In this document: one piece after another, positions 6,344 through 64,000 of the stretch
How positions within the stretch are numbered: the first letter of the stretch is position 1
Layout of the letters: the number at the start of each line of letters is the position of its first letter
DNA from: Histomonas meleagridis
Lineage: Eukaryota > Parabasalia > Tritrichomonadida > Dientamoebidae
Assembly (NCBI GenBank): GCA_020186115.1
Contig: WSYJ01000155.1
Span: forward strand, 81,267-145,266
DNA: 64,000 nt
Direction: 5' to 3'
Translations under genes and position numbers: made by a program
Notes under the pieces: generated by a model
What the model saw: the letters and a program-made list of their open reading frames with translations, nothing else
Told to the model about the DNA's origin: nothing
The model's database searches: none

Positions 6344-8808
6344 ATGGCTATTCAATACATCAAAGATAAGGGTATCAAGCTCACAAACATCCAAGCCGAT
6401 GATATTGTCGATAAGAACCTTAAGCTTACATTAGGTCTCACGTGTATGCATCAACAAGTTCCAAATCGAAGATATCTCTGTTGAAGAAGCAACAGCACGT
6501 GATGCTCTTCTTATCTGGTGTAAGAAGAACACCCAAGGCTATGATGGTGTTAACATCACTAACTTCACCACATCATGGTCCTCAGGTCTTGCTTTCTGCG
6601 CATTAATCAACCACTTCCGTCCAGAACTTCTTGACTACAACTCACTTGACAAAGAAAACCATGCCGATAACTGCAAGAAAGCATTCGAAGCCTGCGAGAA
6701 ACTTGGTATCACAGTCTTCCTTGATGTTGAAGATCTTGTTGACACAACACCAGATGACAAATCTGTTGTTACACAAGTTTCCGAATTCTTCCACTTCTTT
6801 GCTTCCGAAACTAAGGTTCTTGCCTTAGCTGAGAAGGCCAAGAAGATTGTTGGAATCCAAAAGCAAATCTACGAACTTAAGAACAACTATGATGAACAAG
6901 CCAAGGTTTTCATGGATGCTCTTAACGAAGCTAAGAACAACTTATTAGCTGATGATTATGAACAAACAGTTCCAAGCGTTAAAGACAAACTTGTCAAAGT
7001 TGTTAAGTTCGGTCGTGATGAACGTCCAAAGCTTGTTGAACTTCGCGGTACAGCCATCAGAACATGGACACAATTAGTATCAAACTGCAATTCACACAAT
7101 CGTCAAATCCCAACACCACCAGAAGGCCTCGAACCAGAAACACTCACCAAGGCACTCGAAGAAACCGAACAAATCCAAGGCAACAGGAGCACCGAACTTA
7201 AGGAAATTTTTCATAACCTTCAAAAGTCAAAGATTGATGACTTCAATGAGAAGTGCGATGCAATTGCCAACAAGTGCAATGAAATCCGTGAGAAGTCCGA
7301 ACAATAAGATATCCTTAATGATCTTCTTGAAGAAGCCAAAGGACTTTCAGCATCAGAACTTCAAGCACCATATGATGAACTTGTTCAACTTCAATTAAAC
7401 ACACGCGCCAAGTACACAGTTTACTCCATCCAAAGCGAAATCGATCAACTCGTTTCACTCTTAACACGTCTCATTGACCAAAAGAGAGCACGTGATATCG
7501 AAAAGGAGAACAAGGCTAAGATCGATGCATACAATGAAAAGGCACAAGACCTTAAGGTATCACTCGAAATCGAAGGCTAACTCGAACAACGCCGTGAACA
7601 CTTCATCAACAAGATCAAGGAAATCACCGAAAAGAGAGAAGGTATCAACAATCTTACCATAAGCTTGAACAAGAAAGTCTTCACCTTGAAATCGAAAACA
7701 CACCACAAGTTATCTCATCAATGTACGCATGTGTTCTTGCACAAGCTACAAACTCATTGAATGAGATCTACAACACAATGGTTCAAAGCTATGATGCTAA
7801 AGCAGCAGAATTCATCGAGCGCATCAAGCCAATCGAAACATCTGCCAAAGAACTCGAAGGTTGACTTGAAGACAAGAAGCAAAAGCTCGAAGAACTTCTT
7901 GGCCAAGCAAAAGCAATCACACCAGAAATCGAACAACTTGATGCACCATTCGAAGAACTTACACAATACAAACTCAACTACAAGGCTAAGGCATCGCCAA
8001 CAGATGTACTCGCTTCAGCAGATGCACTTGTTGCTACAATCAATCACTTGATCCAACACAACGAAGGTGAAATCATTGAAACAAGAAACAGCTCAAAGAT
8101 CTCAGAATACAACGAGAAGGCTAATGTCATTCTTGAAACCGCTAAAGCACTTGAAGCATCACTCGATGGATTTCCAGAATCTAACGAAGAGAAGTTAACA
8201 GCACTCTTCGAGAAGCAAAAGGAAGTTGAAGCCGAAAAAGGCAAAGTCGAAGAAATCCTTCCATTATACGAAGAAATTGAAAAGGATTCACTCGAAACTG
8301 AAGTCGAGAACTCACCGTCAGCCATTTCACAATTCTTCGCTAACACATTAAGACATAGATCCAAGAAGCAGACAAAGCAATTGCAGCTGCTAAGGGTCTC
8401 GAAATCTCTGAAGAACAACTTAACGAATTCCGTGAAACATTCGACCACTTCGACAAGGACAAGAGCAAGACGCTCGAGCCATACGAACTTAACGCGTGCC
8501 TTACATCACTCGGTGAGACTTCTACTGAAGATGAATGCAAGGAAATCATCAAGAAGTACACCGGCGAACAAGAGAAACTCGACTTCGATAACTACGTCAA
8601 GTACATGCTCGACAGATTCTCTAAGGCAGAATCAGCAGACGCAACTAAGGAGGTATTCAGAGCTATCGCACACAATAGCCCAATAATCAACGACGAACAA
8701 TTAGCAAGATACTTCAGCCCAGAAGACGCTGAATACCTTAAATCTGTTATGACACCAGTAGAAGGAGGTTATGACTTCCAACAATGGGTTGACTCAATCT
8801 ACCAATAA
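6344..8808 (+). pseudogene. Alpha-actinin pseudogene, 5'-truncated, several lesions
   Basis: Homology starts abruptly at the last helix of the first calponin-homology domain (YIKDKGIKLTNIQADDIVD), so nearly all of CH1 is missing. It then runs through CH2 (WCKKNTQGYDGVNITNF, SSGLAFCALINHFRPELLDY), a long helical rod with spectrin-like repeats, and a C-terminal calmodulin-like region with one good EF-hand loop DKDKSKTLEPYE, ending in TAA at 8806-8808. Lesions seen: a 2-nt loss near 6447 (with a Trp-to-Cys change beside it), TAA at 7305-7307, TAA at 7578-7580, a 1-nt loss near 7657, TGA at 7862-7864, and a 2-nt gain near 8357. Codon use between lesions is still that of a highly expressed gene, so decay is recent. 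The functional gene would crosslink actin; an intact copy should exist elsewhere. Confidence 0.9.
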
Positions 8809-9163: not shown

Positions 9164-10782
9164 ATGAAACCAAATGAACATTGCAACTGGGAAACACTTC
9201 GATCAATAAATCAAGCAATTTTTAGTTTGAATGAAGAAAATTTGTCTAAATCTTTAGGTTTAATAATCAACAAATTTGATGAAATCCATATTTTATCTTA
9301 TGATTTAATGATTATTCAAATGATATATTATTCCTTTGTAATTAAAAACAATGATGTAGATTTATTTTTTAATATTATAAAAGAAATAAGAACATTTGAA
9401 GAGAGTCATCAAATCAAATCTAATATATTTGATATATTTGGTCGATTTCTTAACAATGAGCATACACATGAATCATATTATCTTCTTGAAACTATGATTG
9501 AACATAATTTTCTTGAACCAAACATTGTAAAAAACAAACAGGATGTTTATTTTGCACATTATATGTCTAAAGAAGAATTAGCAATTTTAAGGGAACATGA
9601 TTTTGTCAATTATGAAGAACTTTCAAAGAATGATTGGGAATTACATAAGAAATTAATTAGAGAAGGACATAATGCAAATGAAATTGCAAAAATAATTCGA
9701 AATGATGAAATTGAAAAACTTCAAGAAATAACATCACAAAATGATTTTGACTTTAATCAAGAAATTGAACTATCACTTTATGAAAGATGCTCATTCATTA
9801 ATCGGTATAATGTTTTATTAATTGATTATGCAGCATTTTTTTCTTCAGTAAAATGTTTTAAATATTTACTTATAAATGGTGCAAGTGTAGAAAATACAGG
9901 CAAATATGCTCTTGCAGGTGGAAATGAAGAAATTATTCATTTATGTGAACAAAATCATTCATCATTTCAAAATGCATATGAAACAACAATTAAGTTTCAT
10001 CGAAATGATATCTTTAAATATTTTTATGATAATAAAATTATTGAAATTAATAATTTAGAAGATATAGGAGAAAAATGGGTTTCATATTTTAATTATGAAA
10101 TTTTTACATATCTAGAAAAAGAAGGAATGAAAATTAATGAAAATATCATTAACAAAGCAGCAATAATTGGAAACATATTTCTTATTAAACATTTTCTTGA
10201 AAGTAATAAAATTCCTAAATATATATTGGTATTTTCAGCAGGATCAATAAATATTGAACTTGTTAAATATATTTAAATACAAGAAGGAATTGATATTAAT
10301 GCTAAAGATATTTATTTTAATAATTTTATGATATTTCAAAATAATATTTGGAAAATATTTAAATTATTTAATACTGCACTTATGTGTGCATTTTTTTTTT
10401 GGTCATACAGAAATAGTTAAATTACTTCTTGAACAAGAAGGAATTGATATTAATGCTAAAAATATTTATATGTTTTATTTGAAATTTATTTTAATAATTT
10501 TATATTTTTAAATAATATTTGGAAATTATTTAAATTATTTGAAACAGCACTTATGAAAGCATCTGAAAGAGGTTATACAGAAATAGTTAAATTACTTCTT
10601 GAATAAGAAGGAATTGATGATAATACCAAAAATATTTATTTGTTTTGTTTTATGTTTATTTTAATAATTTAATGTTTCAAAATAATATTTGGAAATTATT
10701 TAATACAGCACTTATATGTGCATCTGAAAATGGACATATAGAAATAGTTAAATTACTTCTTTCATTTGAAGGACCACGGTGA
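9164..10782 (+). pseudogene. DUF3447/ankyrin-repeat gene with 77-nt inserts, inactivated (locus A)
   Basis: Exon-like block 1 (9164-10309, 382 codons) is a DUF3447-type N-terminus with degenerate ankyrin repeats (SKNDWELHKKLIREG, IRNDEIEKLQE, IDYAAFFSSVKCFKYLL). It carries a TAA at 10274-10276. Three intron-like inserts follow (10310-10369, 60 nt; 10464-10540, 77 nt; 10634-10701, 68 nt), separating ankyrin units 10370-10463, 10541-10633 and 10702-10782. Unit 2 has ten T residues where nine keep the frame (10391-10400), unit 3 has TAA at 10604-10606, and the last unit runs out of homology into TGA at 10780-10782. Block 1 has the same length as block 1 of the intact gene at 30176-33012. Three independent lesions mark it as dead; compare the two intact minus-strand relatives. 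Confidence 0.85.
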
Positions 10783-29089: not shown

Positions 29090-29746
29090 TTACAATTCTT
29101 TGTTTGGTTCAAATTGCTTTCTGAAGAATTCTGCAGCTTCCCTAATGGTCAGCTTTCCTTTGTAGCATGTAATCTCTTCACCCTTTTTCACATATATTCC
29201 AGGGAAATTCTCAAGCTTGAGCTCATCAAAAAGTTTTTGATCATTTGAAACAAAAAATTTGACATCACTCATTCCTAACTTCTTTTCGATTCCTGCCCAA
29301 ATTTTTGGGATCGTTGGCTTTTCAGTGAACAAAATAGCTGCATTTTCAGAAATAGATTGCGTGTAATTATTACGATCAACAACAATAGCTGTATCTTGTA
29401 AGAAAGCGGACACCCAATTAACAAGTAGACGTGCAAGTTGCATTTCACGATATTCATAAATTGTTCCATTGGTAAAGAATAAAAGTCTTGGTACACCTTC
29501 TGTGTGAAGTTCTTGGCATGCTGTTCTGTTCAAAGAGCAATCAAGTTCTGCCCAGTTAGTTATTCCATCACCAAGTTCAGATGCTTGATTCCAAGTTGGT
29601 AATAATCGAACACAATGTTGGCATGATTCGCTATGCAACATTACAAAATAGCTTTTATTATCATTTGGTGGAAGACCTTCTAAGTGGACGATATTGGGTC
29701 CAAAATTAAAATGAGAAGTAATAAAAACCAAGAAACAAAAGAACAT
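29090..29746 (-). CDS. PDI-like secretory thioredoxin-fold protein
   Basis: 218 residues. Signal peptide MFFCFLVFITSHFNFG, then a thioredoxin domain with active site SESCQHCVRLLPTW (CxxC as CQHC), LDCSLNRTACQELHTEGVPR and a cis-Pro segment GVPRLLFF. A second, CxxC-less thioredoxin-like half follows (FFVSNDQKLFDELKLENFPG). No KDEL-type ER-retention signal at the C-terminus (FEPNKEL; the last four are NKEL, which is close to KDEL). It likely assists disulphide formation in the ER. The reading is complete and undisturbed. Confidence 0.8.
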   Translation of the reverse strand: MFFCFLVFITSHFNFGPNIVHLEGLPPNDNKSYFVMLHSESCQHCVRLLPTWNQASELGDGITNWAELDCSLNRTACQELHTEGVPRLLFFTNGTIYEYREMQLARLLVNWVSAFLQDTAIVVDRNNYTQSISENAAILFTEKPTIPKIWAGIEKKLGMSDVKFFVSNDQKLFDELKLENFPGIYVKKGEEITCYKGKLTIREAAEFFRKQFEPNKEL

Positions 29747-30175
29747 TTGGTTGGATTTTCTGAATAACCGTCAACCGAAATTTAATTTCATCCTCGCTTT
29801 TATCTAAAACATTTTTGAATACTTTATTTGGAGTACCCCGTTAGAAAGCGGTTATCAATATTTTAACCTTATCTTTAACTATTAAAATGTAATATTATAT
29901 TCAAGTTTTCTTTTTGAAAAATTCTCGTGTTTTTGAAAGTAATCCTGACGATTTCGAGATATTTCCATTTTAACATTTTGAATTCATTTAGCAGCTTTAT
30001 TGAATAGATTTTACGGTTAGAATTTGAAACGGAAAAAGTGACATTGAACATAAGGTAGTTATCATTTATCAAAACGAGATATTGTTGTTGTTGTACTTTA
30101 ATAAAATTTAGCTTATATCAAAATGCTCATTTCACATGAACATTTTTTGCCAATCAAAAAAAAAAGATGGAATTT
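29747..30175. other. Intergenic, no gene seen
   Basis: 429 bp AT-rich spacer between the PDI-like gene and the last unit of the ankyrin gene, both minus strand. Confidence 0.45.
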
Positions 30176-33012
30176 TTAGAATTTGAATTTAGCGCATATC
30201 AATTTAATTATTTCTTTGTGATTAAATTTCGAAGCTATTAGAAGTGCTGTTTGAAGTTTTTTGAATAATTTCCAAATAATGTTATAAAATTTTATTTTAT
30301 TTAAATGAATTTTAAATAATATAGTTAATTATTTTTAGCATTAACATCAATTTCTTTTTGTTCGACAAGAGCTTTCACAACTTCATAATTACCTTTGAAT
30401 GCTGCTGAATGAAGTGATGTCCAAAATATTATTCATAATTTCCAAATGTTATACAAAAATAAGAAACAATTAAAATAAATATCATAGAAAACAAATTAAT
30501 ATTTTTAGCATTTATATCAATTCCTTTTAGTTCAAGGAGTAACTGAACTACTTCTAAATGGCCATTTAAAGATGCAAGAATAAGTGCTGTATTAAATAAT
30601 TTATATAATTTCCAAACATTATTTTTAAAAATAAAATTATTAAAATAAATATTAATTAAAACATAAAAATATTTTTAGCATTTATATCAATTCCTTTTTG
30701 TTCAAGTAGTAATTCAACGACTTCTAAATAACTATACGAAGATGCTAAAATAAGTGCTGTATAAAATAATTCAAATATTTTCGATATATTATTTTGAAAT
30801 ACTGAAATAATAAAATAATCATGGAATATTTTCTACAAAAACTATTTCTAGCATTAATATTTATTCCTTCTTGTTTAATAAGCAAACCAACTATTTCTGT
30901 ACTACCATTTTCAGATGCATAAATAAGTGCTGATTTCTATATTTTAAGTAATTTCCAAATAATGTTTTTAGATTTTATTTTATTTATATAAAAATTAAGC
31001 AAAAGAAACAAATATCTTGAGTATTAATATCAATCCCATTTTTTTTAAGAAGTGATTTAACGATTTTTGCATGACCCTTTTCTGAAGCACATGTAAGTGC
31101 TGTTTGAAATAATTTGTATAATTTCCTAATATTTTTTAGGAATTTCAAATTATTAAAATAAATATCAAATGAAATAAAAAAATATTTTTGGCATTAATAT
31201 CAATTTCTTTTTGTTTTAAAAGTAATTTAACTATTTCCAAATGACCTTGATAAGATGCAAGAATAAGTGCAGTATTAAATAATTTAAATTTTTTCCAAAT
31301 AGTATTTTGGAATACTGAAAAATTGAAATAAACATGAAACTAAATTTACAAAAATTATTTTTAATATTGACATTAATCTCTGTTTGTTCAAGAAGTAACT
31401 TAACTATTTCTATGTAACCATTTTCAGATGCATAAACAAGCGCAGCTTTTTATAATTTAAATAATTTCCAAATAATATTTTGAAATATCAAATTATTAAA
31501 ATAAATATCAAATAAAACAAATAAATATCTTTAGCATTCATATCAATTCCTTCTTGTTCAAGAAGTAATTTAACTATTTCCAAATGACCTTGATAAGATG
31601 CAAGAATAAGTGCAGTATTAAATAATTTAAATTTTTTCCAAATAAAATTTTGAAAAATAAAATTGTTGATATAGATTTGATTTTAAACATAAAAACACTT
31701 TTAGCATTAATATCAATTTCTTTTTTCTTAATAAGTAATTTAACTATTTTTAAATATCCAAAAAAAGATGCTGTCATAAGTGATGTATTAAACAACTTAA
31801 ATAAATCCCAAATTTTATTTAAAAATGATGTAAAGTTGAAACAAATTTCAAATCAAACTAATAAATATTTTTGTAATTAATATCAATTTTTTTGTGTTCT
31901 AAAATGAACTTAACTAATTCATTATTTCCTGATTCTGTAGAATAAATTAAAATATCTTTTGGAATTGGATTAAATTCAAGAAAATATTTGACAAGAAATA
32001 TGTTTCCAATTTTTGCTGATTCATTAATAATACCATCATTGACTTGCAACCCCTCTTCAAGTAAAAATGAAAAAATTTCATAATTATGATATAAAATACA
32101 AAACTTTCCTAATTCTTCTAAATTATTATTTTTAAAAACTTTGTTTTCATAAAGATATTTAAAGATATTATTTTTATGAAATTGAATTGCTGTTTCATAT
32201 GCATATTCAAATGATGAATGATTTTGTTCACATAAATGAATAATTTCAAGATTTCCACTTGCAACAGCATATTTTCCTGTGTTATTTACATTTGCACCAT
32301 TCGTAAGTAAATATTTAAAACATTTAACTGATCCAAAAAATGCTGCATAATTAATTAATGTTACATTGCTTTCATTAATAAATGAACATCTTTCATAAAG
32401 TGATGGCTCAATTCTTTGATTAAAATCGAAATTTGCTTGTGGTGATATTTCTTGAAGTTTTTCGATTTCATCATTTCGAATTATCTTTGCAATTTCATTT
32501 GGATTAACTCCTTCTTCAATTAATTGCTTATGAAGCTCCCAATTGTTTTTTGAAAGTTCATCATAATTTTCAATAATTGATTCTAAAAATTCAGAATATA
32601 TAAATTTTTTAATTTCTTCTTTCGACATGTAATGTGCAAAATAGAGATTGCTTTTGTTAATTTTTGGCTCAATAAAATGTAGTTCATACATTTTTTCAAG
32701 AAGCCAAAATGACTCATGTGTATTTTTGTTAATGAGGAAAATTGTAATGACATCAATTATTTTCGATTTTATTTTGTTTTTCTCATATTTTTCAATTTCT
32801 TTAATTAAGTTCAAATAAATATTAAAATCATTAATTCGCAAATCAAATATTGTATACAACATTTGGGAAATCATTAAATTAAAAGATAATGAATAATTTT
32901 TTTCATATTTGTTGATGATGGAGTTTCTTAATTGATTAAAATTTAAATCATTTAAATCAAAAAACATTCTATTTATAAGTATGAGTGTTTCCAATTGGTC
33001 TTGATTTGACAT
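30176..33012 (-). CDS. DUF3447/ankyrin-repeat gene split by ten intron-like inserts (gene B)
   Basis: Block 1 (33012-31867, 382 codons) has the DUF3447-type N-terminus and degenerate ankyrin repeats (SKNNWELHKQLIEEGVNPNE, IRNDEIEKLQE, INYAAFFGSVKCFKYLL) and ends KKIDINYKN. Nine ankyrin units of exactly 93 nt (31 codons) follow, at 31697-31789, 31527-31619, 31357-31449, 31184-31276, 31014-31106, 30844-30936, 30671-30763, 30501-30593 and 30331-30423. A final 78-nt unit (30253-30176) ends in TAAAA. Every unit is open in the ankyrin frame (for example NTALILASYQGHLEIVKLLL). Taken together they encode about 690 residues, with 31-residue repeats, or slightly longer if a few insert bases are kept. 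Without removal of the inserts translation stops 3 codons into insert 1. Ankyrin proteins bind partner proteins; the specific role is unknown. Confidence 0.8.
30254..31866 (-). repeat. Ten phased 77/80-nt AT-rich inserts in gene B (intron-like)
   Basis: Inserts in transcription order: 31866-31790, 31696-31620, 31526-31450, 31356-31277 (80), 31183-31107, 31013-30937, 30843-30764 (80), 30670-30594, 30500-30424, 30330-30254; all others are 77 nt. Each begins right after the codon following the IDINAK motif (usually Asn or Asp) and ends right before the X-Thr/Ser-Ala-Leu codons of the next repeat. Most start RTTTAT-like, carry TTTGGA 17 nt from the 3' end, and end near AAATTATTT. Several contain stops in every frame that could connect the flanking units (for example TAA at the end of insert 3 and TAG at the end of insert 6). 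The true processing boundaries may shift by up to about 9 nt. Confidence 0.85.
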
Positions 33013-33145
33013 GTAAAAATGGCTTGAAACTCACTTTTTGACTGCTTTATGTAATTTTTTTGCGGCCATCTATACACTCAAAAGCTCAAGAGTTCAAATG
33101 GCGGTTTCCCACTTTTTATGTGGAGCTCCTTTGGCTTAGGGTTTG

Positions 33146-33904
33146 ATGAGCAAGTTCCAAGCGATCCAAGTAACAGATTTTTCAACGCCCAAACCTGAAA
33201 ACGCCATTAGAGTCTTCTGTTTTTCGGATACGCATGGTCTTCATGCAGACATCCCTCGAGAACATATTGTCCCCGCAGATATTGGAATAATGGTTGGTGA
33301 CTTTACAGGATATGGCAATGTTACTGATGTTGACAGCTTTCGTGATTGGTATCTTCAATTGCCATTTACCCACAAAATTGTCATTGCAGGTAACCATGAG
33401 ATTTCTTTTGATGAGGCCAATCGTGAATCAATCACACCAATGTGGAATGACCGATTTACGGTCCCAGTGGAGACTATCAAATCACATATTTATCATGAAG
33501 GATTGATCTATGCTGAACATTCCACAATTGAACTTATGGGTCTTAAGATCTTCTGTTCACCATACACTCCTTTCTTCTGTAACTGGGCCTTTCCAGTACC
33601 AAGCAATGATGATAAATTTTGGGATGCGATTCCATATGGCACAGATATTATCGCAACGCATGGTCCACCCCGCGGCATCCTTGACATCACAGCAGGCAAT
33701 TTCCCCGTGAATTGTGGAGACCCATTACTCGCGAGACGTGTTTCCCAGGTCAAACCAGCGCTCCACATATTCGGACACATACACGAAACGTACGGAATCA
33801 AAGTTAGTAAAGCGTTTGGAACGACGTTTGCGAATGTTTCTGTTGCAAACTTCCATTATAAAATTGTGAACAAGCCATTTGTATTCGATATGGTTCCTAA
33901 ATAA
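33146..33904 (+). CDS. Calcineurin-like metallophosphoesterase (MPPED/UPF0046 type)
   Basis: 252 residues from ATG 33146; the frame upstream starts at TTG. All metal-binding motifs of the fold are present in order: FSDTHG, GDFTGYGN, GNHEISFDE, THGPPRGILD and FGHIHETYG. Spacing resembles the MPPED1/2 and bacterial YfcE-like group that hydrolyse cyclic nucleotides or phosphodiesters; the substrate cannot be told. No signal peptide, so cytosolic. It lies between the two minus-strand ankyrin genes. The stop reads TAAAT. Confidence 0.88.
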   Translation: MSKFQAIQVTDFSTPKPENAIRVFCFSDTHGLHADIPREHIVPADIGIMVGDFTGYGNVTDVDSFRDWYLQLPFTHKIVIAGNHEISFDEANRESITPMWNDRFTVPVETIKSHIYHEGLIYAEHSTIELMGLKIFCSPYTPFFCNWAFPVPSNDDKFWDAIPYGTDIIATHGPPRGILDITAGNFPVNCGDPLLARRVSQVKPALHIFGHIHETYGIKVSKAFGTTFANVSVANFHYKIVNKPFVFDMVPK

Positions 33905-34035
33905 ATTAAGTAAAATTTTAATACGATTATGCACATCAATTGTTGTAATTGAGAATAAAAAATTTTATCGGTATAAAAAATAATTCATACATTTTAATAT
34001 TAAATTTTATGTAAAAAATTATTAAATCTGTCTGT

Positions 34036-37000
34036 TTATTTAGAACTCATGAATTTTTTAAGCCTTAATAATTGTATTATTTCCGGGTTATCAGTCAAAG
34101 TCGATGCATAATCATAAACAATATTTTCTTGCTTTATAAGTAACTTTATAACATCAATGTAACATCCTTGGCAAGCATATGCAAGAGCAGTTTTAAAAGA
34201 CACAAAAAAAATTCCAAATATAACGTCAAAATATCAATTTTTTCAAATAAACATCAAAAATTAATATCAAATAGTTTTCGCATTTATATCAATATCTTTA
34301 TGATCAAGAAGTAACTGTACCACATTAATAGATCCGTTCCTACATGCTGACATTAGTGCTGTCCAAAATATTTTTTGAAAATTCCAAATATAAATTCAAA
34401 ACATTGAAATTATTAAAGAAACAGCAAATAAAATATTGATATAGTTTTAGCATTAATATCAATTTGTTCTTGTTCAAGAAGTAATTTTACAACTTCTGCA
34501 TCTCCTTTCGAACAAGCAAGCATTAATAATGTAATAAATTGTTGGATTAATCTCCAAATTATTTGATAAGACATAAAATATTTTATTATAATTTTGATAA
34601 GATGAAATAAACATCTCTCTCATTGATATTAATTCCTTTTTGTTGAAGAAGTAATTTAACAATATTAGTATTATTATTTTTACAAGTAATCATAAGTGGC
34701 GAGTTAAATAATTTGAATAATTTCCAAATAATATATGAAAACAGCTTAAAATCAAAATAAATTTTATATAAAATAAATTGATATCATTAACATTCACATC
34801 AATTTCATCTTGTTCAAGAAGTAATTTTATTATTTCTTCATGATTATTTAAACAAGCAATTAAAAGAGGTGTTCTTTTTAATTTAATTAAATTCCAAACA
34901 TTTCTTTTAAACATCAAAATTTTTATATAAATTTTAAATAAAAAATAAAAATATCTTTTTCATTAACATCAATTTTCTTTGTATCCAAAAGTAATTTGAC
35001 AATTTCAGTATAACCATTTGAACATGCAATATTTAGTGGTGTCATAAATAATTTGAAGAAATTCTAAATTATTAAATGAAACATGAATTAATACAATTAT
35101 ACTTTATCTAAAGTAAATTAATATCTTTTAAGTTTAAATCAATTTCTTTATGTGTAAGAAGCAAAGAAACAATTTTTGGTTTATTATTTTCTACTGCAAT
35201 GATTAATGCTGTTTTAAATATATCAAACAAATTCCAAATAGTGAAAACAATCATTAAACTCTTAAAATAAATATTATTCAATAAAAATTAACTTTTTTTT
35301 CATTTATGTTTAAACCATTTTGTTCAAGAAGCAATTTAACAATTTGTGAATGGCCTCTTTTACATTCATTCATGAGTAATGTGGAAAATAATATAAATAA
35401 ATTCCATATAAACCATAAAAAAATCAAAACTTTTAATGAAACATTAGATAAAATGCTAAAACATGTTTATAATTAATATCAATTCCTTTAATTGAAAGTA
35501 ATAATTTAATGGCTTCCGGATTATTGCTGTTTGAAGCAATTTTAAGCAATTTAAAAAATATTAAAAACAAATTCCAAATAAAAAATAGAAACATGTAACA
35601 CATTAAACTAACAACAAATAAAAAGAAAAAATATGTCTTGTATTGATTTCAATATTAGTTTGTTTCAATAATAAATGCATAATCTTTGTATCACCTTTTG
35701 AACAAGCCCACATAAAAGCATCCCAAAAACAAAAAAACAAATTTTAAATATTAAGATAATATATCAAATAAAAATTAAAAACATTAGAAAAATATATAAA
35801 ACATCTTTTATATTAATATCTATATTTTTAGTCGATAGTAATAATTTTGCTATCTCAAAATAACCATTTGAACAAGCCAACATTAGTGGTGTACAAAATA
35901 TTTAAAATAAATTCCAAAAAGTAAATAAAATAAACACCAATTAAATCATTTAAACATTTTTTGCATTATAATCAATATCTCTAAACTTAAAAGTATATTC
36001 AATAACTTCAATATTTCCGGATAAAACAGAATTTAATAAAATATTTTTAGGTAAATTAGAATTCTTTAGTGCATATTTCATTAATATATATATATTACCA
36101 TTCTTTGCAGATTCTTGAACCATCATTTCATTAATGTTTAGTCCTTCATTTTCCAAGAAAAACAATATATCATAATTATCATATTCAACACAAAGTTTCC
36201 CGAGTTCATTTATATCTTTCATTTTGGAAATTTGAAATTCAGAAAGATAAAAAAATATTTCGTTTCGGTGAAACATAATAGCAGTTTCATACGCTTCTTC
36301 AAATGTTGCAGCGTTTTTTGAACATAATTGGATAATTTCATGATTTTGACCTGCAACTGCAAATTTTCCTGTGTTTGTAACAGTTGCTCCATTTTCTAAA
36401 AGAAATTGAAAACATTTAATCGATCCAAAGAATGCTGCATAATCAATTAATGAAATATTAAATTGATTAACAAAAGAATGTCTTTCATATAAAGATGGTT
36501 CAATATTTTGATTCAAATTAAAATTCATTTGTGATGAAATTTCACGAAGTTTTTTAAAATCATCATTTTTAATGATTTGTGCAATTTTAGTTGAATTTGT
36601 TCCTTCATTAACATAAATTTTATGAAGTGCCCAATTATCTTTAGAGAGTTCTTCTATATTTGCTAAAAATTGCTTACTAAAAGGAACGCGTTTTAATTGA
36701 AGAATCTCATCATACTTCATGTGATGTGAAAATAACAAAGATTGTTTTGATTTAAGAAATGTCTCATCAATAAGTTGATTTTCATACATTTTTTCTAGAA
36801 TAAATTTTACTTCTTGTGAATCTATTTTATTAATAAGTTGCAAGAAAATTTTAGTTATCTTTTGATCATAATGAACTGCTTCTCCTTCAATAGATTCCAT
36901 CGCTAATAAATATTTAATAAAAATATTATAATCTTTGTTTTGTGAAATAATTGCTGTATAAACTAATCGGCAAATAGCTAATCTGAATGAATATGGGTGA

Positions 37001-37131
37001 ATTGCATCAAAGTAATTACAAGTTGATTTTGCAGATTCTTCAATGTTATCATCAGTTAATTCGAAAATTATTTTCTGTAATGACCTAAGATTCTTTATAT
37101 AATTGCCTTCAAGATTCTCTTGAGAGTTCAT
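34036..37131 (-). CDS. DUF3447/ankyrin-repeat gene split by eleven intron-like inserts (gene C)
   Basis: I start it at ATG 37131 because TCATTTTG, an initiator match, lies directly upstream; an in-frame ATG at 37158 is the alternative. Block 1 (37131-35956, 392 codons) has the same DUF3447-type layout as gene B (SKDNWALHKIYVNEG, IDYAAFFGSIKCFQFLL) and ends IDYNAKN. Ten ankyrin units of exactly 93 nt follow: 35803-35895, 35633-35725, 35463-35555, 35293-35385, 35123-35215, 34953-35045, 34783-34875, 34613-34705, 34443-34535 and 34273-34365. A 159-nt last unit (34194-34036) ends in LKKFMSSK and TAAAC. None has a stop or frameshift although they differ widely (TPLMLACSNGYFEIAKLLLS, STLLMNECKRGHSQIVKLLL, TALMSACRNGSINVVQLLLD). 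The insert after block 1 has TAA as second codon, so the downstream repeats need insert removal. Confidence 0.8.
34195..35955 (-). repeat. Eleven phased AT-rich inserts in gene C (intron-like)
   Basis: In transcription order: 35955-35896 (60 nt), 35802-35726, 35632-35556, 35462-35386, 35292-35216, 35122-35046, 34952-34876, 34782-34706, 34612-34536, 34442-34366 (all 77 nt) and 34272-34195 (78 nt). They occupy the same place in the ankyrin repeat as in gene B. The 5' base is A or G followed by T in all of them. TTTGGA, or a one-base variant, sits 17 nt from the 3' end in most; the second insert lacks it. Overall sequence is much more diverged than in gene B, yet the length is kept to the base. 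Confidence 0.85.
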
Positions 37132-37132
37132 G

Positions 37133-37140
37133 CAAAATGA
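37133..37140 (-). promoter_or_regulatory. Initiator-like TCATTTTG before gene C
   Basis: TCATTTTG on the minus strand precedes ATG 37131, giving a leader of about 7 nt, typical for trichomonads. It argues that gene C is expressed from this start. Confidence 0.5.
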
Positions 37141-37441
37141 TTTTAAAATTGAATACATTACTTTATATAAATGTCAAATGCAACTTCTTTTTGGAAATTG
37201 AAAAGTTTATATGTGAACTGAAACAATTTACGCTCAGTTTAAACAGGGAATGTTCTCGTTTAAACAAAATAGTTAGCACACATATGAGCACATTCACAAA
37301 GCTTGTTTTTTTTTTTTTTCAAGTAGTGTGTTCGTTTCAGAAATTTAGATTAATTAAAATATATTTTTTTAATTAAAACACATTATACATCAAAAGTTTT
37401 TGAATATAATTATTACATATAATATTAATCCGATAGCATTT

Positions 37442-40546: not shown

Positions 40547-41705
40547 ATGGAAAACAAAGTAAATGAAAGTCAATTAAAACGAATTATTGAGTTCGTGAAG
40601 GCGCAAAATATTATTCGTGATTTAGATAAGAAAAACATAGAAGAATCGGCTTCGATAATATTGAATTTATTTGATAATAATTTCATGCTATCAATAAATC
40701 TGATCATTAGTCAATTGGTTTATTCAGCTTTTTTTTCAAGGATAATTGACTATACTTTATGTTTAGAATTTATAAAAATTATTCAACAAAAAGAAAATAA
40801 TAAAACCCAAACAATTACAAATGTTTTTACTCAATTTCTTCTTGACTCAGATACACAAGACTCAAATTATTTACTTGAAAAGATGATAGAAACTTATATT
40901 ATAAATTCAGATATCGTTAAGAACAAAAACCCCTATATTTATACATTATAAAGCCAAAAACGATATCAAACTTTCAATCAAAATCTACAATTTTATAATG
41001 AGATAAATGATAATATTGAAGAAATATCAAAGAATGATTGGGAACTTCATAAGAAGTATATTAAAGAAGGAGTTAATAAGAATGAATTATCAAAAATAAT
41101 TCGAAATGATGAAATAGAAAAACTTCAAGAAATATCATCACAAACAAATTTTAATATTATTCAAACAATTGAGCCATCATTTTACGAAAGATGTTCATTT
41201 GTTAATGATTATAATGTTACATTAATTGATTATGCAGCATTTTTTGGATCAATTAAATGTTTTAAATATTTACTTATGAATGGTGCAAAATTAGAAAACA
41301 CAGGTAAATATGCAGTTGCAGGTGGAAATGAAGAAATCATTTATTTATGTGGGCAGAATTATTCAACATTTCGAAATGCATATTACACAACGATTATTTG
41401 TCATCGAAATGATTTTCAAAACCATGATTTTCTATAGAAAATTTGATGATGGACTTAAAAATATACTTGCAATTAAATGAATTGAATCAAATAATTATAT
41501 TCTTCTATCATTTCTTGAAGATAATGATTTCAAGATTAAAGATTAAAGGAAATGAAGAAATTATTAAAATACTTTCTCAAGATGGTATTGATATAAATGA
41601 AAAAACATTTTTTTGTATAATTTAATAATCATTTAAAATATTTTATGTAATTAAATACTATTTGGAATTCAATTAATTGACTTCTAACGGCACCTGCAAG
41701 AAATA
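40547..41705 (+). pseudogene. DUF3447/ankyrin-repeat pseudogene (locus D) with one insert remnant
   Basis: Starts MENKVNESQLKRIIEFVKAQ like the other three family members, but meets TAA at 40949-40951 where relatives continue into the NDWELHK region. After this the frame again shows family sequence (SKNDWELHKKYIKEG, IDYAAFFGSIKCFKYLL, NTGKYAVAGGNEE). It then has a TAG near 41436, a large deletion, and one ankyrin remnant GNEEIIKILSQDGIDINEK. An insert-like stretch with TATTTGGAATTC follows that remnant. It is a dead copy, but it shows that the insert predates its decay. Confidence 0.75.
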
Positions 41706-42239
41706 ACGAGCCCAAAAAAAGCACAAAATTAATTCAAAAGAAAAAAAAAAATTAAAACCGTAGTAAAAAAGTCGAAATAATTTTTATATACGTATATGCA
41801 TTAATGTATGATACATCTGAAGAAAATTGGTTTAATAAAAATTAAAAGAATTTTATAAATAATTTAAATTTTGAAGAATTTGTTGAGCTTCATATATAAA
41901 GTAGTAAATAGAAGAGAGAAGATTTTTATATGAACCTGTATGATTTTATTTAATAATAGATCGTAATTACATTGAAAAAACAGGTGAAACTTTAAATTAA
42001 CGAAAATTCCTTGAACACTGAAAAATTAAACATGTCTGTTCGAAATAATTTGAATGGCTTTGTTTGCTAAAAGAACGTTAATATATAACCGTTCAAAGAT
42101 GTTGAGCCAGGCACCCCTACGGTTTTTACTTCACCTGGGATATTTTTTGTTGTGCACAACAACACTTTAATGCTGAGTGGTAGCGTAACTCATGAAACAA
42201 TAAATATCAGAATGAATGGGAAGTGTTACTCGTGATCAA

Positions 42240-56720: not shown

Positions 56721-57317
56721 ACCACCCACCCACACACGTACCACCCACCCACACGTACCACCCACCCACACACGTACCACCCACCCACACCTACCACCCA
56801 CACACACGTACCACCCACCCACACGTACCACCCACCCACACAGTACCACCCACACACACGTACCACCCACCCACACTCCCCCCCCACCCACACGTACCAC
56901 CCACACACGTACCACCCACCCACACGTACCACCCACCCACACGTACCACCCACACACACGTACCACCCACACACCTACCACCCACCCACACGTACCACCC
57001 ACCCACACGTACCACCCACCCACACGTACCCACCCACCCACACGTACCACCCACCCACACGTACCACCCACCCACACTTACCACCCACACACAAGCACCA
57101 CCCACCCACACGTACCACCCACCCACACGTACCACCCACCCACACGTACCACCCACCCACACGTACCACCCACCCACACGTACCACCTACACACACACGT
57201 ACCACCCACCCACACGTACCACCCACCCACACGTACCACCCACCCACACAGTACCACCCACCCACACAGTACCACCCACACGTACCACCCACCCACACAG
57301 TACCACCCACACGTACC
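56697..57317 (+). repeat. 17-nt minisatellite CGTACCACCCACCCACA
   Basis: Tandem copies of CGTACCACCCACCCACA with frequent variants (one CACC lost, CAGTACC for CACGTACC). The most C-rich part of the array. Confidence 0.85.
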
Positions 57318-57612
57318 ACCTACACACACGTACCACCTACACACACGTACCACCTACACACACGTACCACCTACACACACGTACCACCTACACACACGTA
57401 CCACCTACACACAAGTACCACACACACACGTACCACCTACACACACGTACCACCTACACACACGTACCACCTACACACACGTACCACCCACACACACGTA
57501 CCACCCACACACACGTACCACCCACACACACGTACCACCTACACACACGTACCACCTACACACACGTACCACCTACACACACGTACCACCTACACACACG
57601 TACCACCTACAC
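57318..57612 (+). repeat. 17-nt minisatellite variant CGTACCACCTACACACA
   Basis: About 16-17 copies in which CCCACCCACA has become CCTACACACA. Intermediate in sequence between the C-rich unit on its left and the CA unit on its right. Confidence 0.85.
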
Positions 57613-60600
57613 ACAAGTACCACCCACACACACAAGTACCACACACACAAGTACCACACACACAAGTACCACACACACACAAGTACCACACACACAAGTA
57701 CCACACACACAAGTACCACACACACAAGTACCACACACACACAAGTACCACACACACACAAGTACCACACACAAGTACCACACACACAAGTACCACACAC
57801 ACACAAGTACCACACACACACACACAAGTACCACACACACACAAGTACCACACACACAAGTACCACACACACAAGTACCACACACACACAAGTACCACAC
57901 ACACAAGTACCACACACACACAAGTACCACACACACACAAGTACCACACACACACAAGTACCACACACACAAGTACCACACACACAAGTACCACACACAC
58001 AAGTACCACACACACACACAAGTACCACACACACAAGTACCACACACACACAAGTACCACACACACACAAGTACCACACACACAAGTACCACACACACAA
58101 GTACCACACACACACAAGTACCACACACACAAGTACCACACACACACAAGTACCACACACACAAGTACCACACACACACAAGTACCACACACACACAAGT
58201 ACCACACACACAAGTACCACACACACAAGTACCACACACACACAAGTACCACACACACAAGTACCACACACACAAGTACCACACACACAAGTACCACACA
58301 CACACAAGTACCACACACACAAGTACCACACACACAAGTACCACACACACAAGTACCACACACACAAGTACCACACACACACAAGTCCCACACACACAAG
58401 TACCACACACACAAGTACCACACACACAAGTACCACACACACAAGTACCACACACACAAGTACCACACACACACAAGTACCACACACACACAAGTACCAC
58501 ACACACAAGTACCACACACACAAGTACCACACACACAAGTACCCCACACACACAAGTACCACACACACACAAGTACCACACACACAAGTACCACACACAC
58601 ACAAGTACCACACACACAAGTACCACACACACAAGTACCACACACACACAAGTACCACACACACACAAGTACCACACACACAAGTACCACACACACACAA
58701 GTACCACACACACAAGTACCACACACACACAAGTACCACACACACAAGCACCACACACACAAGTACCACACACACAAGTACCACACACACACAAGTACCA
58801 CACACACAAGTACCACACACACAAGTACCACACACACAAGTACCACACACACACAAGTACCACACACACAAGTACCACACACACACAAGTACCACACACA
58901 CAAGTACCACACACACACAAGTACCACACACACAAGTACCACACACACAAGTACCACACACAAGTACCACACACACACAAGTACCACACACACAAGTACC
59001 ACACACACAAGTACCACACACACACAAGTACCACACACACAAGTACCACACACACAAGTACCACACACACAAGTACCACACACACACAAGTACCACACAC
59101 ACACAAGTACCACACACACAAGTACCACACACACAAGTACCACACACACAAGTACCACACACACAAGTACCACACACACAAGTACCACACACACAAGTAC
59201 CACACACACAAGTACCACACACACACAAGTACCACACACACAAGTACCACACACACAAGTACCACACACACAAGCACCACACACACACAAGTACCACACA
59301 CACACAAGTACCACACACACAAGTACCACACACACAAGTACCACACACACACAAGTACCCACACACACACAAGTACCACACACACAAGTACCACACACAC
59401 AAGTACCACACACACAAGTACCACACACACAAGTACCACACACACAAGTACCACACACACAAGTACCACACACACAAGTACCACACACACACAAGTACCA
59501 CACACACAAGTACCACACACACAAGTACCCACACACACAAGTACCACACACACAAGTACCACACACACAAGTACCACACACACAAGTACCACACACACAA
59601 GTACCACACACACAAGTACCACACACACAAGTACCACACACACACAAGTACCACACACACACAAGTACCACACACACAAGTACCACACACACAAGTACCA
59701 CACACACAAGTACCACACACACAAGTACCACACACACACAAGTACCACACACACAAGTACCACACACACAAGTACCACACACACAAGTACCACACACACA
59801 AGTACCACACACACAAGTACCACACACACAAGTACCACACACACAAGTACCACACACACAAGTACCACACACACAAGTACCACACACACACAAGTACCAC
59901 ACACACAAGTACCACACACACAAGTACCACACACACAAGTACCACACACACAAGTACCCCACACACACAAGTACCACACACACAAGTACCACACACACAC
60001 AAGTACCACACACACAAGTACCACACACACACAAGTACCACACACACAAGTACCACACACACACAAGTACCACACACACAAGTACCACACACACAAGTAC
60101 CACACACACAAGTACCCACACACACAAGTACCACACACACACAAGTACCACACACACAAGTACCACACACACACAAGTACCACACACACAAGTACCACAC
60201 ACACAAGTACCACACACACAAGTACCACACACACAAGTACCCACACACACAAGTACCACACACACAAGTACCACACACACACAAGTACCACACACACAAG
60301 TACCACACACACAAGTACCACACACACAAGTACCACACACACAAGTACCACACACACAAGTACCACACACACAAGTACCCCACACACACAAGTACCACAC
60401 ACACAAGTACCACACACACAAGTACCACACACACAAAGTACCACACACACAAGTACCACACACACAAGTACCACACACACAAGTACCACACACACAAGTA
60501 CCACACACACAAGTACCACACACACAAGTACCACACACACAAGTACCACACACACAAGTACCACACACACAAGTACCACACACACAAGTACCACACACAC

Positions 60601-63600
60601 AAGTACCACACACACAAGTACCACACACACAAGTACCACACACACAAGTACCACACACACAAGTACCACACACACAAGTACCACACACACACAAGTACCA
60701 CACACACAAGTACCACACACACAAGTACCACACACACAAGTACCACACACACACAAGTACCACACACACAAGTACCACACACACAAGTACCACACACACA
60801 CAAGTACCACACACACAAGTACCACACACACAAGTACCACACACACAAGTACCACACACACAAGTACCACACACACAAGTACCACACACACAAGTACCAC
60901 ACACACAAGTACCACACACACAAGTACCACACACACAAGTACCACACACACAAGTACCACACACACACAAGTACCACACACACAAGTACCACACACACAA
61001 GTACCACACACACAAGTACCACACACACAAGTACCACACACACAAGTACCACACACACAAGTACCACACACACAAGTACCACACACACAAGTACCACACA
61101 CACAAGTACCACACACACAAGTACCACACACACAAGTACCACACACACAAGTACCACACACACAAGTACCACACACACAAGTACCACACACACAAGTACC
61201 ACACACACAAGTACCACACACACAAGTACCACACACACAAGTACCACACACACAAGTACCACACACACACAAGTACCACACACACAAGTACCACACACAC
61301 AAGTACCACACACACAAGTACCACACACACAAGTACCACACACACACAAGTACCACACACACAAGTACCACACACACAAGTACCACACACACAAGTACCA
61401 CACACACAAGTACCACACACACAAGTACCACACACACAAGTACCACACACACAAGTACCCCACACACACAAGTACCACACACACAAGTACCACACACACA
61501 AGTACCACACACACACAAGTACCACACACACAAGTACCACACACACAAGTACCACACACACAAGTACCACACACACAAGTACCACACACACAAGTACCAC
61601 ACACACAAGTACCACACACACAAGTACCACACACACAAGTACCACACACACACAAGTACCACACACACAAGTACCACACACACACAAGTACCACACACAC
61701 AAGTACCACACACACAAGTACCACACACACACAAGTACCACACACACAAGTACCACACACACAAGTACCACACACACAAGTACCACACACACAAGTACCA
61801 CACACACAAGTACCACACACACAAGTACCACACACACAAGTACCACACACACAAGTACCACACACACAAGTACCACACACACAGGTACCACACACACAAG
61901 TACCACACACACAAGTACCACACACACAAGTACCACACACACAAGTACCACACACACAGTACCACACACACAAGTACCACACACACAAGTACCACACACA
62001 CAAGTACCACACACACAAGTACCACACACACAAGTACCACACACACAAGTACCACACACACAAGTACCACACACACAAGTACCACACACACAAGTACCAC
62101 ACACACAAGTACCACACACACAAGTACCACACACACAAGTACCACACACACAAGTACCACACACACAAGTACCACACACACAAGTACCACACACACAAGT
62201 ACCACACACACAAGTACCACACACACAAGTACCACACACACAAGTACCACACACACAAGTACCACACACACAAGTACCACACACACAAGTACCACACACA
62301 CAAGTACCACACACACAAGTACCACACACACAAGTACCACACACACAAGTACCACACACACAAGTACCACACACACAAGTACCACACACACAAGTACCAC
62401 ACACACAAGTACCACACACACAAGTACCACACACACAAGTACCACACACACAAGTACCACACACACAAGTACCACACACACAAGTACCACACACACAAGT
62501 ACCACACACACAAGCACCACACACACAAGTACCACACACACAAGTACCACACACACAAGTACCACACACACAAGTACCACACACACAAGTACCACACACA
62601 CAAGTACCACACACACAAGTACCACACACACAAGTACCACACACACAAGTACCACACACACAAGTACCACACACACACAAGTACCACACACACAAGCACC
62701 ACACACACAAGTACCACACACACAAGTACCACACACACAAGCACCACACACACAAGCACCACACACACAAGTACCACACACACAAGTACCACACACACAA
62801 GTACCACACACACAAGCACCACACACACAAGTACCACACACACAAGTACCACACACACAAGTACCACACACACAAGTACCACACACACAAGTACCACACA
62901 CACAAGTACCACACACACACAAGTACCACACACACAAGTACCACACACACAAGTACCACACACACAAGTACCACACACACAAGTACCACACACACAAGTA
63001 CCACACACACAAGTACCACACACACAAGTACCACACACACAAGTACCACACACACAAGTACCACACACACAAGTACCACACACACAAGTACCACACACAC
63101 AAGTACCACACACACAAGTACCACACACACACAAGTACCACACACACAAGTACCACACACACAAGTACCACACACACAAGTACCACACACACAAGTACCA
63201 CACACACAAGTACCACACACACAAGTACCACACACACAAGTACCACACACACAAGTACCACACACACAAGTACCACACACACAAGTACCACACACACAAG
63301 TACCACACACACAAGTACCACACACACAAGCACCACACACACAAGCACCACACACACAAGTACCACACACACAAGTACCACACACACAAGTACCACACAC
63401 ACAAGTACCACACACACAAGTACCACACACACAAGTACCACACACACAAGTACCACACACACAAGTACCACACACACACACAAGTACCACACACACAAGT
63501 ACCACACACACAAGTACCACACACACAAGTACCACACACACAAGTACCACACACACAAGTACCACACACACAAGTACCACACACAAGTACCACACACACA

Positions 63601-64000
63601 AGTACCACACACACAAGTACCACACACACAAGTACCACACATAAGTACCACACACACAAGTACCACACACACAAGTACCACACACACAAGTACCACACAC
63701 ACAAGTACCACACACACAAGTACCACACACACAAGTACCACACACAAGTACCACACACACAAGTACCACACACACAAGTACCACACACACAAGTACCACA
63801 CACACAAAAGTACCACACACACAAGTACCACACACACAAGTACCACACACACAAGTACCACACACACAAGTACCACACACACAAGTACCACACACACAAG
63901 TACCACACACACAAGTACCACACACACACAAGTACCACACACACAAGTACCCCACACACAAGTACCACACACACAAGTACCACACACACAAGCACCACAC
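57613..64000 (+). repeat. 13-nt minisatellite AAGTACCACACAC, continuing past the window end
   Basis: Several hundred tandem copies (about 490 at 13 nt each). A 15-nt form with one extra CA is common up to about 59.5 kb and becomes rare after about 61 kb, where long stretches are perfect 13-mers. Scattered variants are AAGCACC (clusters near 62.7 and 63.3 kb) and AAGTACCC. Because the unit contains no stop in several frames, ORFs of over 2000 codons cross it, but they have no proper ATG and cycle through frames; I do not call them genes. Confidence 0.95.

Follow-up and report, generated by a model that had tools for sequence, protein, structure and literature searches.

Histomonas meleagridis is a poultry parasite of the Parabasalia (Tritrichomonadida, Dientamoebidae). 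In a stretch of 64,000 nucleotides (nt) of its DNA (contig WSYJ01000155.1, positions 81,267 to 145,266; hereafter the window, numbered from its first letter), gene B runs from 33012 to 30176 on the minus strand and is made of eleven ankyrin-coding blocks, none of which has an internal stop, separated by ten inserts. By their anatomy the inserts resemble the introns of a tandemly duplicated exon-intron module, but by their sequence they fail the canonical parabasalid intron features that were tested. Genes of the gene B type are probably multi-exon genes for ankyrin binders, whose inserts would leave the RNA by a non-canonical route. To our knowledge, no known splice-site rule fits these inserts.

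The blocks of gene B comprise block 1, nine units of 93 nt and a terminal unit of 78 nt, all open in the ankyrin frame; eight inserts measure 77 nt and two measure 80 nt (31277-31356 and 30764-30843). An earlier note on this DNA had given the same coordinates, counts and lengths, which were found to be right when they were re-measured. The first exon is an open reading frame (ORF) whose frame continues for two codons inside insert 1 and then meets a stop. The parts of the gene are:

31858-33012, minus strand: first exon, N-terminal ORF of 384 residues, DUF3447/ankyrin domain of a trichomonad family (Pfam DUF3447 and Ank)
31867-31959, minus strand: block 1, the last ankyrin repeat of the N-terminal exon
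31790-31866, minus strand: insert 1, 77 nt
31697-31789, minus strand: ankyrin unit 2, 93 nt
31620-31696, minus strand: insert 2, 77 nt
31527-31619, minus strand: ankyrin unit 3, 93 nt (PF00023, E 2.6e-9)
31450-31526, minus strand: insert 3, 77 nt
31357-31449, minus strand: ankyrin unit 4, 93 nt
31277-31356, minus strand: insert 4, 80 nt
31184-31276, minus strand: ankyrin unit 5, 93 nt
31107-31183, minus strand: insert 5, 77 nt
31014-31106, minus strand: ankyrin unit 6, 93 nt
30937-31013, minus strand: insert 6, 77 nt
30844-30936, minus strand: ankyrin unit 7, 93 nt
30764-30843, minus strand: insert 7, 80 nt
30671-30763, minus strand: ankyrin unit 8, 93 nt
30594-30670, minus strand: insert 8, 77 nt
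30501-30593, minus strand: ankyrin unit 9, 93 nt (PF00023, E 1.2e-8)
30424-30500, minus strand: insert 9, 77 nt
30331-30423, minus strand: ankyrin unit 10, 93 nt
30254-30330, minus strand: insert 10, 77 nt
30176-30253, minus strand: terminal ankyrin unit with its own stop codon, 78 nt

The three single units that were scanned match the ankyrin profile PF00023 with 37.3, 35.2 and 31.8 bits, compared to a curated cut-off of 21.1.

Gene B is one member of a large family. The genome searched amounts to 43.28 Mb in 121 contigs, the window belonging to contig C90, and the N-terminal exon of gene B has at least 108 match rows in it (its own included), 98 of which are free of internal stops. The best-scoring 30 of these rows, gene B among them, were examined together with gene A, another member in the window, which makes 31 sequences (the two genes plus 29 paralogous loci); a profile of the ankyrin unit detects an array in 31 of 31. 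The spacing of the units within the range of 100-260 nt (n = 200) is 170 nt in 154 cases, 153 nt in 19, 173 nt in 8 and takes nine other values in the remaining 19; two spacings, of 343 nt in locus L029 and 2,601 nt in L045, are excluded from this count. The arrays end in mixed ways outside gene B: some have a stop within a unit, others enter insert-like sequence or leave the fetched piece. One chimeric member was seen among the loci fetched (L061), whose N-terminal domain abuts the 3' part of an insert, a structure that a deletion would leave.

The inserts, too, occur throughout the genome. A core of 29 letters, searched with up to 3 mismatches, occurs 4,683 times genome-wide (2,341 + 2,342), and the reversed core does not occur at all. 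When exact exon edges are required, unit-insert-unit places number 1,867 if the gap measures 55-85 nt, and a single place has a gap of 0-29 nt; this sole candidate for an insert-less junction (L056) is a chance match within the 3' part of an insert. All six cores of the window and all five isolated cores that were fetched lie within ankyrin arrays, these 11 of the 4,683 being the only ones checked without an ankyrin-based choice. The earlier note had reckoned with ten inserts in one gene, which is too small a scale given thousands of inserts in many loci, but its tandemly duplicated exon-intron-like module of about 170 base pairs (bp), in an intron-poor parabasalid, is supported. Among the titles and abstracts listed by a literature search, from which subscription papers were mostly out of reach, none describes such insert-cut ankyrin arrays.

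The window contains two further members of the family, one diverged and one decaying:

34036-37158, minus strand: gene C, a more diverged member, with an N-terminal ORF at 35950-37158 (402 residues, ending in NAKNV before the stop)
9164-10782, plus strand: gene A, a decaying member, with inserts of 60, 77 and 68 nt

Gene C has ten units of 93 nt, from 35895 down to 34273, and a terminal unit at 34194-34036, and none of these 11 units has an internal stop. Its first insert is of 60 nt (35896-35955, from the coordinates); of the ten that come after it, nine measure 77 nt and one 78 nt, and the inserts hold this length despite a mean pairwise identity of only 59% (41% when shuffled). Gene A is damaged: the last repeat of the N-terminal exon has a stop, one unit is frameshifted and one bears a stop; its terminal unit carries a stop codon. 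A broken piece at 41301-41900 on the plus strand resembles the same N-terminal family and has one ankyrin-like part at 41518-41604.

The units behave as coding sequence. Among the 170 internal units of the 31 arrays (30 codons each, first and last units not counted), two bear a stop, one in L033 and one in the decayed gene A; since the unit profile was run on stop-free pieces, broken units are under-counted and open ones favoured in this number, and the 343-nt gap in L029 hints at one missed, perhaps broken, unit. A neutral simulation, with the same number of substitutions placed at random, puts stops into a mean of 96 of 154 units (about 62%, range 82-110). The ten 93-nt units of gene C have an identity of 0.56 at the first codon position, 0.71 at the second and 0.49 at the third. 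The N-terminal exons evolve with a ratio of non-synonymous to synonymous rates (dN/dS) of about 0.5 (28 of 30 loci, the two stop-bearing ones being excluded), and for whole units dN/dS is 0.49-0.71 in pairs below 80% identity and above 1 in pairs above 90%.

The variability of the units is concentrated in four residues. Positions 0, 5, 8 and 9 of the 31-residue unit have entropies of 2.6-3.4 bits over the 170 units, and all other residues stay below 2 bits. The ratio of non-synonymous to synonymous differences (pN/pS) at these four residues is 3.22 in pairs with less than 5% divergence and 2.45 at 5-10%; outside them it is 0.79 at 10-20% divergence and 0.64 at 20-35%. Stop-bearing units are excluded from this comparison. 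Since the pairs overlap throughout, the ratios are given without any claim of statistical significance. The selection on the ankyrin blocks that the earlier note had suggested is thus borne out by the rarity of stops, the codon-position pattern, the concentrated variability and pN/pS.

The position of these residues suggests a binding surface. When one unit is aligned with chains of designed ankyrin repeat proteins (DARPins), residues 8 and 9 match the two residues between "AA" and "GH", and the "xx" of this AAxxGH motif are the randomised binding positions of the designed proteins. Residues 0 and 5 presumably face the binding surface too, and the four variable residues are taken to be that surface. 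The family is thus like designed and natural ankyrin proteins in the PF00023 match of three units and in the alignment of two of its four variable residues with the "xx"; unlike DARPins, it is a natural repertoire, whose repeats are parted by non-coding inserts in the DNA.

The inserts have a different character. They were studied as a set of 210, closely related to one another (200 from the 31 arrays and 10 from gene C), and as a mutually diverse subset of 43. Their length is 77 nt in 163 of the 210, and 57, 60, 63, 68, 74, 76, 78, 79, 80, 94 or 97 nt in the remainder. All three classes of length modulo 3 are represented (27, 5 and 178 of 210), and the next unit is readable nonetheless; the +3 class was left unused as evidence of frame keeping, because the extra codon may be exonic in some first units (L031). 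Their composition is like that of introns: the content of G and C is 9.7%, compared to 28% in the units, with 55% T and 36% A.

Translation through the inserts does not work as a general rule. In the diverse subset the upstream frame is open in 6 inserts, the downstream frame in 12, and 19 can be crossed with one frameshift; the means expected from a first-order Markov model (300 runs) are 5.1, 4.8 and 14.5, respectively, and the maxima 13, 13 and 22. In the full set, the upstream frame is open in 82 and the downstream frame in 126. Even with one frameshift, 24 of the 43 diverse inserts (58 of the 210 overall) cannot be crossed, which excludes reading-through as the rule and agrees with the claim of the earlier note that the inserts are not simply translated.

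The sequence of the inserts does not carry the usual splice signals. The 43 diverse inserts start with R-T-T (A in 31 and G in 11; T in 39; T in 38) and end with TTT (39, 37 and 39), and the most conserved inner motif is GGAA at positions -20 to -17 (31, 27, 35 and 34 of 43). Frame-keeping routes of removal were sought in a margin around the insert, with starts between -6 and +24 and ends between -24 and +6. None of the 210 inserts has a GTATTT...AG route at these edges, and 15 have any GT...AG route; as far as their sequences tell, a frame-keeping GT-AG removal at the edges tested is not possible for the other 195. The letters GTATTT are present somewhere within 26 of the 210 inserts, and those of a branch site in few (CTAAC 0, TAAC 13, TAACAT 11 of 210). 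Other pairs of ends keep the frame more often (AT-AC in 170, GT-AC in 133, AT-AG in 41 and GC-AG in 2 of 210), but AT and AC are very common in the inserts, and AT-AC and like routes are therefore given no weight. The earlier note had stated that trichomonad introns all have highly conserved motifs; the inserts do not carry them. A scan of 29400-37400 against Rfam gave no match up to E 0.5.

The organism appears to have ordinary introns and the means to splice them. Two of the three LSm loci fetched have an apparent short intron (none is seen in L058): GTATTTTTAAATTTTAACATCAG in L057, of 23 nt, and GTATTTTTATTTTTCTAACATACAG in L059, of 25 nt, both predicted on the basis of the reading frame together with the match to LSm. 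They are T-rich and share GTATTT...YTAACAT(N)CAG, and the pattern GTATTT...TAACAT(N)CAG may define the canonical intron of H. meleagridis. It matches the genome 19 times, compared to 11 for the control, which means that canonical introns are few or that the pattern is too narrow. The motifs of Trichomonas vaginalis introns do not exceed their reversed controls in the genome: ACTAACACACAG has 3 matches vs 2, GTATGT..CTAAC..CAG 12 vs 19, and GTATG..CTAACACAG 1 vs 1. A spliceosome is indicated by two genome matches to the U2 small nuclear RNA (snRNA), with GTGTAGTATC seen on the minus strand, and by 19 matches to Sm/LSm. A search of the genome for the U1 snRNA gave no match and neither did its control, so this search is uninformative.

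The boundaries of what would be removed are approximate. In the three single 31-residue units, PF00023 is matched from position 3 to 32 of 33, and three residues are missing between one unit and the next. Each "insert" may therefore include some three coding codons, which would leave a removed piece of about 68 nt; a length of 68-77 nt is probable. The first codon of the insert is never a stop, and 172 of the 210 inserts have ATT or GTT there; the last is TTT in 185 of 210 and a stop in two, both of gene B. The boundaries could not be set from the number of stops at each codon of the insert edges, since some presumably non-coding codons are almost stop-free as well. The ENA protein P0007 reads K-N-V-M-F-E-S-A-L continuously, as would be expected if a repeat had 34 residues and 68 nt were removed.

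Among the 14 ENA relatives that were read, six (P0002, P0003, P0006, P0008, P0010 and P0011) end at K-D-I or a similar triplet, although the ends of such proteins may reflect a stop, the end of a contig or the choice of the gene caller. P0005 runs into insert-like sequence, and P0020 crosses an open insert of 60 nt. Relatives from at least one other species thus appear to break near the same residue.

The following scheme would account for these observations. In gene B, a DUF3447-type N-terminal exon would precede a tandem array with a separate exon for every further ankyrin repeat. The array would be transcribed, the inserts (77 nt as measured, probably 68-77 nt as removed) would be taken from the RNA before translation, and the repeats would be joined into a single ankyrin solenoid. 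The module of about 170 bp spreads through tandem duplication, and selection diversifies four residues per repeat, which would lead to a repertoire of binders with varied partners. The anatomy of the arrays, their scale in the genome, the constraint on the units and their diversification, the many inserts that cannot be crossed and the lack of canonical splice signals are observed; we infer from the DNA that the arrays are transcribed, that the inserts are removed, that this happens at the level of the RNA, and that the products bind diverse partners.

Several observations weigh against this scheme. No GT-AG, branch-site or structural signal is common to the inserts (210 inserts, 143 distinct sequences in the case of structure). 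In two inserts of gene B, the final triplet reads as a stop in the downstream frame, which is problematic if the last insert codon is coding. The downstream frame, open in 12 of the 43 diverse inserts, comes close to the simulated maximum of 13, for a simulated mean of 4.8; 152 of the 210 inserts, mostly close relatives, can be crossed with one frameshift, and of the 19 inserts that measure 60 nt, 12 are open over their whole length. Apart from the four variable residues, the units have a pN/pS of 1.01 below 5% divergence, 1.04 at 5-10% and 1.22 in the most distant, saturated class. Pooled conservation is similar in inserts (mean frequency of the commonest base 0.77) and units (0.73, 0.84 and 0.73 at codon positions 1-3).

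Insertions and deletions (indels) in the inserts are also scarce, at 0.03-0.06 per substitution (8,000 of 19,900 insert pairs sampled) vs 0.20-0.47 in upstream flanks (80 nt upstream of 13 related genes), and ordinary introns need not be so; a simulation with substitutions only gives a spurious rate of 0.03. As read from these pairs, this scarcity is an unexpected length constraint.

The existing protein and gene records likewise count against the scheme. Two of the protein matches listed in length-limited searches (in the second, candidates were capped at 8,000 and 120 of 128 were listed) are named as H. meleagridis, neither with an array, and most entries are nameless. In the published annotation, for which AUGUSTUS was trained with transcriptome data, no gene has more than one intron (PMC8529796). 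KANK1, a protein annotated as ankyrin, is listed in one H. meleagridis proteomics paper (PMC10063853).

The arrays could instead be silent cassettes, storing ankyrin units that gene conversion copies into an expressed, insert-less array, recombination keeping the frames open. This seems rather unlikely. An excess of non-synonymous change at the variable residues and the lack of arrays among the protein matches listed are what such a system would give, and the near-identical two-unit repeat of L005 (97% identity at lag 340) shows that copying has occurred recently. But the genome has no insert-less junction, as judged with one pattern that requires exact exon edges, and the N-terminal exons before the arrays are intact in 28 of 30 loci, which were found via that exon, so that arrays devoid of it would be missed. 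Gene C has kept its frames too, and its units have diverged too far to have been copied recently.

According to another hypothesis, which is judged unlikely, the N-terminal ORF alone is translated, ending in insert 1, and the array is a non-coding satellite amplified from a former coding unit. A 170-bp monomer that is tandem, fairly homogeneous and poor in indels fits this description, as do an insert conserved as much as the unit, the existence of decaying members such as gene A, and the absence of the genes among the protein matches listed. On the other hand, the open frames, the codon-position pattern and the concentrated variability are the marks of constraint at the protein level, and gene A, with four repeats, shows what the loss of that constraint looks like: a stop interrupts its N-terminal exon, one unit is frameshifted and one unit bears a stop. 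Silent cassettes and a satellite are the main rivals of removal from the RNA, and both predict that no unit-to-unit RNA junctions arise from these arrays.

Ribosomes could also skip the inserts, as in the translational bypassing known from gene 60 of phage T4 and the byp elements of yeast mitochondria. Non-coding inserts that lie between conserved codons, lack splice signals and have a low rate of indels would suit this mechanism, which is nonetheless very improbable here. No matched take-off and landing codons were found, none of 80 codon pairs tested in the 43 diverse inserts being clearly enriched (best z 2.3). The inserts have no stable RNA fold (mean z 0.12 in 36 of the 143 distinct sequences), the 30 column pairs that score highest in the 143 do not covary as a helix would, and thousands of skips would be required. 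Ordinary GT-AG introns at shifted boundaries, for which the spliceosome parts and the short LSm introns speak, and sequencing error are hardly credible, as the canonical routes are missing in nearly all inserts at the edges tested and the pattern recurs in all 31 arrays examined and in relatives from another species.

If they are removed from the RNA, the inserts would differ from the introns described in related organisms. The 63 active introns of T. vaginalis occur one to a gene; their 5' motifs are extended and conserved, and their branch site is merged with the 3' site (PMC12316389). The inserts are like the introns of T. vaginalis and T. stableri in being short, T-rich and parabasalid, and the type A introns of these species have a similar length (56-196 nt; PMC12316389), but the inserts number thousands, with many per gene, and lack the motifs of those introns. 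They share the T-richness of the LSm introns of the same organism, but no ankyrin insert has both LSm-type ends in a frame-keeping place.

The nearest precedent found is Amoebophrya, many introns of which lack GT-AG, some of them in repeated families, and for which the authors infer a distinct splicing mechanism (PMC7789003, accessible part). Its introners have inverted and direct repeats, spread genome-wide and have splice sites confirmed by RNA-seq. The inserts of H. meleagridis have no fold that could be found, are seen only in ankyrin arrays among the places checked and are known here from DNA. They are thus like introner elements in that a near-identical intervening sequence stands at many places, and unlike them in that no terminal inverted repeats or end-joining fold were found.

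Apart from this family, a 15-bp tandem repeat, CCACACACACAAGTA, with 94% matches, takes up about 7.3 kb of the window, from 56726 to 64000. It runs up to the end of the window and of contig C90 (145,266 bases) and may be a telomeric or subtelomeric satellite.

Taken as a whole, the proposal that H. meleagridis, regarded as nearly intron-free, removes several thousand near-uniform inserts of about 70 nt from a single gene family without a GT-AG or branch-site motif, in a length-sensitive manner, and so assembles many DARPin-like binders out of exons of one repeat each, is a tentative one, given somewhat less than an even chance. There is a chance that the mechanism of removal is new in kind. 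If the inserts are not removed, apparently interrupted genes would be under a rare constraint at the coding level, which would equally need an explanation. If they are removed, this organism would have several thousand introns in a single family, compared to the published annotation, which counts 573 (638 for the attenuated strain) and never more than one in a gene (PMC8529796). The recognition of splice sites without GT-AG would then become testable in a culturable protist, and H. meleagridis would possess a large, apparently little annotated family of ankyrin binders, whose variable residues resemble a recognition repertoire.

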